Source: Halolamina sp. CBA1230
GTDB lineage: Archaea; Halobacteriota; Halobacteria; Halobacteriales; Haloferacaceae
Assembly: GCF_002025255.2 (NCBI RefSeq)
Contig: NZ_CP054587.1
Coordinates: forward strand, 1,302,001 to 1,366,000
Direction of reading: 5' to 3'
DNA: 64,000 nt
A program made the position numbers and the translations under genes. This document shows, in pieces, positions 19,194 through 59,560 of this stretch; the first letter of the stretch is position 1, and every line of letters begins with the position of its first letter. The notes beneath the pieces were generated by a model. That model was not told where the DNA came from. It did no database searches and saw nothing but the letters and a program-made list of their open reading frames with translations.

Positions 19194-19265
19194 AACCGCA
19201 ACAGCGACTCGGTCGTTGGCCACCTCGACAACCGCAACAGCGACTCGATCGTTGGCCACTTGCGA
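19194..19265 (+). repeat. Two 36-bp tandem units at the left flank of element copy A
   Basis: The unit beginning AACCGCAACAGCGACTCG occurs at 19194-19229 and again from 19230. The second runs into the left terminal inverted repeat of the element. Related units, inverted, follow the right end (19562-19640), where GATGCTGTTGC recurs in degraded form. Confidence 0.75.
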
Positions 19266-19577
19266 CCGCACCGCCCCGTGCAGCCCACGGACCTCCCCAA
19301 CCGATTCGCTCGTTCGCTCCGCTCACTCGCTCATCCCTCACGCTTGCTCGTCCACGGAGGGACTCGCGTTTCGCGCCGACAGCGACCGCGGTGCAGTGGC
19401 GGTGGACGCCTCGCGCTCGCCAACGTGGCGAGGCGGGCGAGAGCCGCAGGCTCTCGCTGCTTCCCGCTCGCTTCGCTCGCGGGAACGCGGGGGGAGGGGT
19501 GGGGAATCCTTCCCAGCGCCGGACCTCGTGTCCGGCGCACTGCGGTCGCAAGTGGTCAACGATCGAGATGCTGTTGC
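19234..19577 (+). mobile_element. Non-coding inverted-repeat element, copy A
   Basis: 344 bp bounded by 37-bp terminal inverted repeats (19234-19270 and 19541-19577, about 34/37 matching). Interior blocks in order: CCGCCCCGTGCAGCCCAC; a variable Ser/Arg-shadow region; CGCGCCGACAGC and GTGGCGGTGGACGCCTCGCG (19372-19415); variable palindromes (CTCGCC..GGCGAG, GAGAGCC..GGCTCTC, CGCTCGCTTCGCTCGCGG); GCGGGGGGAGGGGTGGGG; and a 9-bp hairpin with loop CTCGT (19516-19538). No credible protein is encoded. It fills most of the 610 bp gap between the nikR-like and SDR genes and has the same orientation as both. Copies B and C share the order of blocks. Confidence 0.8.
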
Positions 19578-19734
19578 CGTCGCGGTCGCCGTTCCCGTCG
19601 ACGACGGTCGAACTGCTGTTGCTATCGAAGCATCTCCAACCGACGGCTACCGAGCCGGTCGCGCCAACCCCGGGAGCACCAACGACGAATCGGCGGCCAC
19701 ACCGTTCACGTCGCCCCCCACCCAACCCCCACCC

Positions 19735-28795: not shown

Positions 28796-28900
28796 CTGGG
28801 ACGTCGGCGGCTGCCCGCCGCCGCATCCTACTGAGACACCGGCGGCTGACAGTCGCCGCCTCCTACTGAGACACCGGCGGCTGCCCGTCGCCGCCTCCTA
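28796..28900 (-). repeat. Three tandem 35-bp hairpin repeats abutting a stop codon
   Basis: Units at 28796-28830, 28831-28865 and 28866-28900. Units 2 and 3 are nearly identical (CTGAGACACCGGCGGCTG..CGCCGCCTCCTA); unit 1 is diverged. Each holds an inverted repeat GGCGGCT/AGTCGCC with a short loop. The last three bases of unit 3 are the stop codon of the DUF5813-like gene (minus strand), so the array is in its 3' UTR. Confidence 0.85.
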
Positions 28901-29422
28901 CTGCTCGATCCCGTCGCTGCCGCCCGCCCGCCGTGCCTCGGCCAGAATCCCCGCGACGGGCTCGATGTAGTCGTAGCCGGGGATCACGCCCTGGACGAAC
29001 GTCCCCTCGACGAAGTCGACGACGGCGGCCGCGTCGTCGACACCGCGCGACGGGTCGATATCCTCGATCGCGGCCCGGACTTCCGCGCTGCGGGTTCCCT
29101 CGTGGACCGTCTCGGTCACGGTCGGCTCGAGATCGTGATCGCCCGCGAGCACGCCGCCGCCGATCCCGTCGAGGCGGCGTTCGAACGTCTCGTACCAGCC
29201 CTCCTCGACGACCGGGGCCACGTCACCCTCGGTCACCTCGTCCAGCATCGGCACGCGGGCGACGATCTCGAACCGGATCTCCCCGCCCTCCCCGGGTTCG
29301 GGAGTGACGGTGGCCTCGAAGGGGGTCGACGTGACCTCGAACCGATCCTCGGCGTCACCGTCGGCCTCGAACGCGTCGTGGCTGCGGAACGCTCGCCGGG
29401 CGCGATCGGGTAGCTCGCTCAT
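28898..29422 (-). CDS. DUF5813-like haloarchaeal protein
   Basis: 174 residues, soluble and strongly acidic, from the ATG at 29422 (MSELPDRARRAFRSHDAFE). It shows the order FEVTSTPFEATVTPEP, RFEIVARVPMLDEVT, VEEGWYETFERRLD, and a C-terminal FVEGTFVQGVIPGYDYIEPV. This fits a conserved haloarchaeal protein of unknown function. No catalytic motif is visible. Its 3' end is followed directly by hairpin repeats. Confidence 0.78.
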   Translation of the reverse strand: MSELPDRARRAFRSHDAFEADGDAEDRFEVTSTPFEATVTPEPGEGGEIRFEIVARVPMLDEVTEGDVAPVVEEGWYETFERRLDGIGGGVLAGDHDLEPTVTETVHEGTRSAEVRAAIEDIDPSRGVDDAAAVVDFVEGTFVQGVIPGYDYIEPVAGILAEARRAGGSDGIEQ

Positions 29423-30798: not shown

Positions 30799-30909
30799 GC
30801 CGATTTAGTCGGGGAGTGGTTTGGGTAGTGGTTCTGTTTGCTCGAATGGCGGTCTGCTCGCGATTACGGTGTGTTCGATTCTCGACCTCTACCGCCGCGA
30901 CCGCGAACA

Positions 30910-31260
30910 GCAACAGCATCTCGAAGCATGACCACTGGTGACCGCAACCGCCCCGCACAGCCCTCACGCCTCCCCAGCCGACTCGTTCGCTCCTTTCAGT
31001 CGCTCACTCGTCCCTCGCGCGCTCGTTCGCCCACGCAGGGGCTCACCTCGCGCGCCGACAGCCACGGCGGTGCGGTGGCGGTGGACGCCTCGCGATCGGG
31101 AATTTCGCCGATCGCGGGGGGAGGGGTGGGGATTCGGCGCTGTGCCGTTGACGAGAGCCTGCGGCTCTCGTCTGCCAATCAGAAATCTCCGATTTCTGAT
31201 GATGGGCCTCGTGCCCGGCATCCTTCGGTCACCAGTTGCCAACGAACGAGATGCTGTTGC
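30910..31260 (+). mobile_element. Non-coding inverted-repeat element, copy B
   Basis: 351 bp with 37-bp terminal inverted repeats at 30910-30946 and 31224-31260 (about 29/37 matching; the outer 14 bases ending ATGCTGTTGC are perfect). Same block order as copy A: CCGCCCCGCACAGCCC, CTCCCCAGCCGACTCG, CGCGCCGACAGC, GTGGCGGTGGACGCCTCGCG, a palindrome (CGATCGG..CCGATCG), GCGGGGGGAGGGGTGGGG, further palindromes, and GGGC-CTCGT-GCCC. A palindrome AATCAGAAATCTCCGATTTC lies where copy A has none. It occupies the 624 bp gap between the ATP-grasp and LLM genes, in their orientation. A diverged repeat unit continues to about 31305. Confidence 0.8.
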
Positions 31261-31422
31261 TGTCGCGGTTGCTGTCTCAGTAGCCAACGATCCAGATCCA
31301 ACTCTCATCTGCGACGAACAACCCCCCGATCCATGATCGAACCCACACTCCGAACCGCGAAACCCCACCGTTTCGCCGGCTTCCGGTAGTACCTAACCCT
31401 CAGACACAAACCAACGACCAAG

Positions 31423-35986: not shown

Positions 35987-36016
35987 GCTTCAACCCCACG
36001 AGGGTTCGTCTGAAAC
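35987..36016 (-). CRISPR. Solitary complete 30-bp CRISPR repeat (haloarchaeal subtype I-B type)
   Basis: On the minus strand the 30 bases begin GTTTCAGACGAACCC and end CGTGGGGTTGAAGC. This is the form of the haloarchaeal type I-B repeat, including the GTTGAAGC-type end that becomes the crRNA 5' handle. No second repeat at 30-45 bp spacing and no cas gene occurs in the window. It is an array relic, an isolated repeat insertion, or a mini-crRNA-like locus. Confidence 0.75.
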
Positions 36017-59028: not shown

Positions 59029-59131
59029 CGATCGGTGGTTGTGGCGTGTGGGTGAAAACGTTCGTTGTTCGTCGGTGTCGACGTTGGCTTCGATACCGTC
59101 TCTCGACTCGTCGATTACGCGACGGCGACGG

Positions 59132-59248
59132 CATCTCGATCGTTGGCAACTGGGACAGCAACCGCAACAGCATCTCGACCGTTAGCAACCGGGACAGCAA
59201 CCGCAACGGCATCTCAACCGTTGGCAACTGGGACAGCAACCGCAACAG
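59132..59248 (+). repeat. Three 39-bp tandem repeats flanking element copy C
   Basis: Units at 59132-59170, 59171-59209 and 59210-59248. Each starts CATCTC[GA]A and runs through GGGACAGCAACCGCAAC. Units differ at only a few bases. The last merges into the element's terminal inverted repeat. Confidence 0.88.
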
Positions 59249-59560
59249 CGTCTCGAAGCATGACCACTTGTGACCGCAGGGTGCCGGGCACGAGGCCCGG
59301 CACAGCATGGACTCCCCACCCCTCCCCCCGCGCTCGCGACCGTTGCGAGCGCGAGGCGTCCACCGCCACCGCACCGCTGCCGCTGTCGGCGCGAAGCGCA
59401 CGCGGCCTCGTGCCGCGTGTCAGCGCGAGGGACGAACGAGCGAAGTTCTCGTGAACGAAGTGAACGAGAGCACGGCAGAGCTTTGCTCTGCCGGAGCGAG
59501 TGAGTCGGCTGGGGAGGTTTGTGGGCTGTGCGGGGCGGTGCGGTCACAAGTGGTCATGCT
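59242..59560 (-). mobile_element. Non-coding inverted-repeat element, copy C
   Basis: About 319 bp. Terminal repeats at 59242-59278 and 59539-59560 (22 bases, shorter because the outer part is replaced by CACTCCGCGGTGACG). Read on the minus strand it has the same blocks as A and B: CCGCCCCGCACAGCCCAC, CTCCCCAGCCGACTC, palindromes, CGCGCCGACAGCGG, GTGGCGGTGGACGCCTCGCG, CGCTCGC..GCGAGCG, GCGGGGGGAGGGGTGGGG, and GCCGGGC-CTCGT-GCCCGGC. It lies in an 863 bp gap and points the same way as the two flanking genes. Confidence 0.78.

Follow-up and report, generated by a model that had tools for sequence, protein, structure and literature searches.

The genome of the haloarchaeon Halolamina sp. CBA1230 carries a dispersed non-coding element, three copies of which lie in the 64,000-nucleotide stretch analysed here (contig NZ_CP054587.1, positions 1,302,001 to 1,366,000; hereafter, the window). 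Our preferred reading, which we consider about as probable as all others together, is that they belong to an old dispersed repeat family of Halobacteriales that resembles REP/BIME and SMR repeats and in which a folded single strand is under selection.

Three copies of a non-coding element lie between tandem genes

A first-pass annotation of the window reported three copies of a family with long terminal inverted repeats (TIRs), and sequence inspection located all of them at 19234-19577, 30910-31260 and 59242-59560. The common order of conserved blocks that it described applies along the plus strand to copies 1 and 2; copy 3 is a minus-strand copy and therefore shows the blocks reversed when the plus strand is read. 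The ends are inverted, as had been stated, with a shorter common repeat than the proposed ~37 bp: it measures about 17-22 bp, outside which stand 39-bp units (in tandem at 59131-59256). The inverted end arms are 19231-19278/19533-19580 in copy 1 (48 nt, 85%), 30907-30944/31226-31263 in copy 2 (38 nt, 82%) and 59257-59278/59539-59560 in copy 3 (22 nt, 100%). The best 22-mer inverted match reaches 21, 18 and 22 in copies 1, 2 and 3, versus at most 16 in 200 mononucleotide shuffles.

As the annotation had held, no protein is encoded. Frames inside the copies have mean codon scores of -0.2 to -0.8 bits, versus +0.69 for called genes, and none of the three copies overlaps a called gene. All three sit between tandem genes, with NikR_C, a short-chain dehydrogenase, a luciferase-like monooxygenase and an M29 peptidase as the recognisable neighbours. 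The G-rich block of copy 1 is pushed aside by a nested double hairpin; such cassettes are also present in copies 2 and 3, and the one in copy 1 (19433-19486) was found again in two further loci (L055 and L028). The features of the three copies, in window coordinates, are as follows.

19231-19580, minus strand: copy 1, TIR form; motifs in forward order on plus, folded strand presumably minus; match to model R1 at contig positions 1321276-1321409, core match at 1321396
19303-19335, minus strand: GATTCGCTCGTTCGCTCCGCTCACTCGCTCATC, the H1 hairpin of copy 1, with tandem G.A when read on minus
19372-19383, plus strand: conserved block CGCGCCGACAGC of copy 1
19396-19415, plus strand: core block GTGGCGGTGGACGCCTCGCG of copy 1
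19433-19486: nested double-hairpin cassette of copy 1, GCGAGAGCC..GGCTCTCGC TGC TTCCCGCTCGC..GCGAGCGGGAA, between the H4 stem and the G-rich block
19489-19504, plus strand: G-rich block GGGGGGAGGGGTGGGG of copy 1
19516-19538: H5 hairpin of copy 1, GCGCCGGAC-CTCGT-GTCCGGCGC; covariation helix 9
30907-31263, minus strand: copy 2, TIR form; motifs in forward order on plus, folded strand presumably minus
30980-31012, minus strand: H1 hairpin of copy 2
31075-31094, plus strand: core block of copy 2
31116-31131, plus strand: G-rich block of copy 2
31148-31203, plus strand: nested ~57-bp double-hairpin cassette of copy 2, TTGAC-GAGAGCC..TGATGAT, inserted in H5; resembles the 3' region of IS605/IS1341 TnpB genes
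59131-59256, plus strand: 39-bp end units in tandem beyond the TIR of copy 3 (3.2 copies, 88% matches)
59242-59560, plus strand: copy 3, TIR form, opposite in orientation to copies 1 and 2; motifs in forward order on minus, folded strand presumably plus
59314-59329, minus strand: G-rich block of copy 3
59350-59369, minus strand: core block of copy 3
59431-59506, plus strand: H1 hairpin of copy 3, split by a nested double-hairpin cassette at about 59446-59493

Tandem end units (39-bp; 29-bp at the right flank of locus L313) stand beyond the terminal repeats of many copies in varying number. Elsewhere in the window we noted a 35-bp tandem repeat at 28805-28903 (2.8 copies, 90% matches) and a lone match to CRISPR-DR24 at 35987-36016 (48.8 bits).

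The family is widespread in Halobacteriales

The annotation anticipated many copies per genome, and the source genome indeed has about 70 TIR-form copies, besides about 20 that are fused to another repeat, F2. With mismatches allowed, the core block has 57 matches in this genome (2 with a reversed-pattern control), the G-rich block 58 (control 5) and the end repeat 104 (control 0). The 2.9-Mb main chromosome, C1, bears all copies listed, with none on the three smaller contigs, C2-C4 (for the core, 57 versus 0; 4e-5 by length).

Searching the complete genome and other Halobacteria, as had been suggested, yielded many further copies. A model of the left half of the element matches in 7 of 7 Halolamina genomes and in at least 167 of 392 Halobacteriales genomes (48 of 95 genera), a lower bound because scoring was limited to the top 8 candidates of each genome. 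R2, a second model built on distant copies, counts 89 copies in the source genome and 83, 72, 50 and 46 in genomes of unrelated families; its distribution is patchy, with zero in many families. A 26-letter pattern occurs in at least 120 stretches of GTDB genomes, with Halobacteria throughout among the matches listed, and all 26 matching genomes in a phylum sample of 295 fall within Halobacteriales. The same pattern has no match in 2.9 million viral contigs, nor did blastn of copy 2 find one in phage records; fragments occur on some haloarchaeal megaplasmids. Adjacent inverted pairs of copies were observed in other genera (L144, L167, L187; G037, G030), both 3'-to-3' and 5'-to-5'.

Rfam 15 assigns no family to the window at the gathering threshold and gives nothing credible at E<=10 over copy 2 or at E<=1 over five relatives. 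A likeness of GCGGTGGCGCGCGCT to SRP RNA, noticed by eye, was discarded since no Rfam SRP match was found. A literature search on motif strings returned, for archaea, a single match, in an unrelated Hadesarchaea G-quadruplex table. The family is thus previously uncatalogued, found here in neither Rfam nor the literature.

In Halolamina the base element spans about 245 bp from TIR to TIR and consists of a C-rich block, H1, H2, block CGCGCCGACAGC, the core block, the apical hairpin H4, the G-rich block and H5. Its ~110-nt core comprises the H2 hairpin, the H1 hairpin and a TGGGGAGG tail. About 13 copies have a type B right half (GTGGACGCGAGGGCTCGCC..GGCGAGCCCGTGGGGAGGATG), and the F2 repeat (GGGACTGAAAGGGGC..GGGGCTTTCACGGTGTTG), itself a covarying 12-bp stem, is joined to about 20 copies, often 3' of the core; some copies are TIR/F2 hybrids. 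F2 is listed at 22 places in the source genome (L324-L345; for example, C1:99993 and 1542585) and is also found in other genera. TIR-only sites, considered as a possible autonomous partner, belonged to the element itself, as type B or other variant forms. What had been described as variable palindromes between the blocks are in part nested mobile cassettes and in part exchangeable hairpin alleles. Halolamina alone seems to have added the inverted repeats and the right half to an older core.

Copies favour the 3' ends of genes

With genes called by a codon-usage script rather than taken from curated annotation, 67 copies occupy 29 convergent, 32 tandem and 6 divergent gaps, compared with a background of 66, 142 and 93 (n=301). 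Convergent (3'-3') gaps are thus favoured and divergent ones avoided, no copy in the source genome overlaps a called gene, and named loci of other genera lean towards 3' gaps in the same way. In tandem gaps the element strand is sense to the flanking genes in 10 of 32 cases, so that it seems unlinked to flanking transcription and a cis 3'-UTR role is not indicated. A 3'-UTR reading drawn from distant matches was likewise dropped, since orientation is mixed. Orientation runs along the chromosome are random and therefore carry no lagging-strand signature, and no recurrent neighbour gene emerged among 465 flanking proteins.

One strand appears to be kept folded

Distant copies share, on the reverse strand, a core of the form GCGCGAGGGAY-(GA-NN)3-loop-(NN-GA)3-RTCGGYTGGGGAG. 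The folded strand reads 5'-GGYGCGCGC-[H2]-GCGCGAGGGAY-GA-NN-GA-NN-GA-NN..NN-GA-NN-GA-NN-GA-RTCGGYTGGGGAGG-3', with pairing kept across the order. On this strand, H1 alternates 2-bp Watson-Crick steps with invariant tandem G·A. In alignment A4 (51 sequences), 97.4% of cells in the NN steps are paired and H1 covariation is 0.710, versus 0.239 when shuffled and at most 0.134 when slid; the inner H1 columns were left free in the search pattern, although about 16 of the sequences, having been found with model R1, may be biased towards its structure. The GA/GA columns are 97-100% invariant on both arms, and the pairs between them vary. Halosimplex has Watson-Crick pairs in place of the GA/GA steps, a replacement that provides independent support for the hairpin.

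RNAalifold folds 23 copies into 69 pairs, of which 24 show changes on both sides. The whole-element structure (alignment A2) has 97.1% paired cells and a covariation of 0.226, versus 0.087 shuffled and at most 0.069 slid; its long-range helix between the C-rich and G-rich blocks and its TIR stem vary too little for covariation support. Compensatory pairing, as expected of a structured RNA, thus exceeds the relatedness controls. Among scored mismatched pairs in H1, wobbles (G.T) number 52 when the reverse strand is read and 9 when the forward strand is, an asymmetry whose nominal P of 2e-8 ignores relatedness among non-independent H1 sequences and which fits RNA and single-stranded DNA alike. 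The F2 stem is without such an asymmetry.

These observations bear out the earlier suggestion that the inner blocks and hairpins are kept beyond what a decayed transposon needs: stems covary, and the core is common to Halobacteriales families. They also favour the folded-structure part of its proposal of a functional RNA or DNA, in which the folded strand may act as either. Swapped hairpins invariably retain pairing, which suggests that the fold of one strand is maintained for some purpose; judged from sequence comparison, the folded single strand appears to be the selected unit.

A new class of structured non-coding RNA would account for several of these properties. A transcript of the reverse strand would function through its H2-H1 core and G-rich tail, for example as a family of protein-binding small RNA genes or as a transcript-end element. 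Strong covariation combined with conserved non-Watson-Crick GA.GA steps speaks for such a class, as do wobbles confined mainly to one strand (52 versus 9), high conservation outside the stems (for instance, GCGCGAGGGA and TCGGYTGGGGAGG) and presence across many Halobacteriales families. However, a housekeeping RNA would not usually number tens of copies in certain families and be missing from others, and we saw neither a promoter nor a fixed gene relation, with orientation to flanking genes mixed. We therefore hold this class to be possible, with the balance tilted against it. We advance with somewhat greater reserve a specific version, a haloarchaea-specific high-copy RNA class in which an H1 ladder of tandem sheared G.A and covarying 2-bp steps would be bound by a dedicated protein, with tens of dispersed copies maintained at fixed chromosomal sites by gene conversion.

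Copies lie apart from Y1 transposase genes and host IS605-like cassettes

Ten Y1 transposase matches were found in the source genome, and no copy lies within ~1.5 kb of any of them. A RAYT linkage was consequently rejected, there being no Y1 gene flanked by copies among the ten. The TIR is absent from the ten Y1 and fifteen TnpB loci inspected. Derivation from a known IS, a possibility the first-pass annotation had allowed for, gains nothing from these loci or from clustering of neighbour proteins, in which no IS with these ends was found. IS605 TnpB matches number 14 on C1 and 25 on C2-C4, compared with 57 and 0 for the core (Fisher 2e-13); the three small contigs, with 25 of the 39 TnpB matches, make up 16% of the genome.

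The nested cassettes are ~57-bp double hairpins of the form TTGAC-GAGA-hairpin-TCTCGTCTGCCAATCAGAA-hairpin-TTCTGATGA. They match the 3' part of TnpB genes (OrfB_IS605, Cas12f1-like_TNB) on plasmids of Halorientalis and strain DL31, follow TTGAC or TCGAC (L356:2292-3737, L357:2368-3714; nested in L001-L011 and L067) and are nested at several positions of the element in either orientation. From their sequence, they are best read as probable IS605-derived mini-elements comparable to terminal-only PATEs (PMC3119063).

These cassettes, the Y1 genes of the source genome, the hairpin architecture, the adjacent inverted pairs in other genera and the 3'-gap preference would all suit a REP/RAYT-like or IS605-like single-stranded DNA element mobilised by a hairpin-reading HUH (Y1) transposase. 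We consider this unlikely, given that none of the ten Y1 genes is flanked by copies, that orientation runs are lacking and that the ~110-nt motif, with its non-palindromic conserved core, is far longer than a REP.

Most sampled sites are shared between two species, and modules differ in place

For about 28 of 40 copies from a congener (G006), both flanks match one element locus of the source genome at 79-93% identity. Within the element, mean identity is 0.852 between orthologues and 0.846 between paralogues, and the orthologue is the best match in 3 of 20 cases. At the same site, H1 differs between species in length and sequence and retains its pairing rule, nested cassettes are polymorphic for presence or absence between two Halolamina species, and one element is flipped in place (L306/L083). 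Five sites have a type A right half in G006 and type B in the source genome, a count restricted to sequence-checked switches because automatic calls of half and end type err (four pairs with a false early right TIR, one 52-nt truncation). Going by pattern, ectopic gene conversion or module exchange would be expected to produce this in-place replacement of hairpins, halves and cassettes. Intermolecular gene conversion is reported to be very efficient in Haloferax volcanii (PMC8223754).

In the source genome, the element-free counterparts of two loci, L286 and L313, are rearranged; neither is a clean empty site, and no target duplication could be obtained from them. At L286 the G006 flanks adjoin across the element and lie 137 kb apart in the source genome (C1:2457514 and 2594648), a rearrangement breakpoint at the element.

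The history of these sites bears on the MITE-like unit that the first-pass annotation had entertained, a non-autonomous TIR transposon moved in trans by a transposase. Most Halolamina copies do have TIRs, and the lack of coding capacity, the high copy number and the occurrence in both orientations would fit. In the other genera inspected, however, the core stands without these TIRs; it is confined to C1 (57 versus 0) while IS605 TnpB is not (14 versus 25); sites are common to two species; and no autonomous partner was found among the ten Y1 and fifteen TnpB loci. A simple MITE is thus not supported, given shared sites, absence from the IS605-rich contigs and the lack of a linked transposase. 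We judge it improbable; at best, it accounts for the Halolamina TIR form and not for the core. Finally, a mutational by-product, in which template-switch correction and gene conversion perfect inverted repeats with no selection for folding, is very improbable: hairpin alleles do recur and are exchanged as blocks, and haloarchaeal gene conversion is very efficient (PMC8223754), yet template-switch correction would remove the TC/TC (GA/GA) mismatches, whose 97-100% invariance argues against a purely mutational origin of the palindromes.

A proposed history of the family

Our preferred reading, an old repeat family selected as a folded strand, suggests the following history. Long ago, a trans-acting enzyme recognising the folded strand may have dispersed the copies. 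Today each copy would be passed on at its site and would trade modules with others through ectopic gene conversion, and selection against copies upstream of genes would leave most survivors in 3' gaps. A protein may recognise the structure formed by the invariant GA.GA steps and the TGGGGAGG tail, perhaps in reverse-strand RNA. Halolamina would have gained the terminal inverted repeats and right half, and IS605-type double-hairpin mini-elements probably insert into the family itself.

Haloarchaea are studied intensively, and a conserved folded element with tens of copies in many of their genomes would be a feature overlooked so far. Its tandem G·A ladder makes a sharp prediction for a binding partner, its fixed sites with swapped hairpins would let ectopic gene conversion in polyploid archaea be traced in nature, and the family as a whole provides a concrete test for a REP-like domesticated repeat system in archaea.

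Comparison with known systems

As in Rfam structured RNAs, the element combines covarying stems with conserved single-stranded blocks; it has no credible Rfam 15 match over the sequences scanned. Like haloarchaeal MITEs (PMC3119063), the Halolamina copies are TIR-bounded, non-coding and multicopy. Unlike them, the family has no partner transposon that we found, occupies old vertical sites and keeps its core without the TIR elsewhere: terminal inverted repeats characterise the Halolamina TIR form and were absent from the core copies that we inspected in other genera. PATEs (PMC3119063) have 52-bp terminal-only forms that resemble the nested ~57-bp double hairpins. This likeness is limited to the cassettes, whereas the host element has Halolamina TIRs and a conserved non-palindromic core and departs from the PATE/IS605 pattern of near-terminal palindromes without TIRs.

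The resemblance to REP/BIME repeats with RAYT (PMC2817692, PMC3733652) lies in high copy number, intergenic and palindromic character, 3'-gap preference and inverted pairs. The element differs in its length (~110-250 nt versus 20-40), its tandem G.A hairpin and its lack of a linked Y1 transposase. It thus has the dispersed, 3'-preferring, high-copy palindromes of REP/RAYT systems without a repeat-flanked Y1 gene, and a conserved unit of ~110 nt in place of the 20-40 nt REP palindrome with a tetranucleotide head.

The SMR-A/B repeats of Haloquadratum walsbyi are short and non-coding, with inverted repeats unrelated to known transposons and up to 54 copies per genome; SMR-A, of ~110 bp, targets PATE palindromes and was described in one species, in which a given position can hold another repeat or the reverse orientation, a phenomenon called SwitchRepeats (PMC3119063). 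Our family shares with SMRs the character of short haloarchaeal non-coding repeats, and its in-place A/B switches and inversion match SwitchRepeats. It differs in its order-wide core, its old sites common to species and its covarying stems, a comparison made with the published description rather than with the HqIRS40-43/55 sequences. Because the RAYT link fails and the SMR comparison is one of description, we regard the element as working like REP and SMR repeats and do not call it a member of either.
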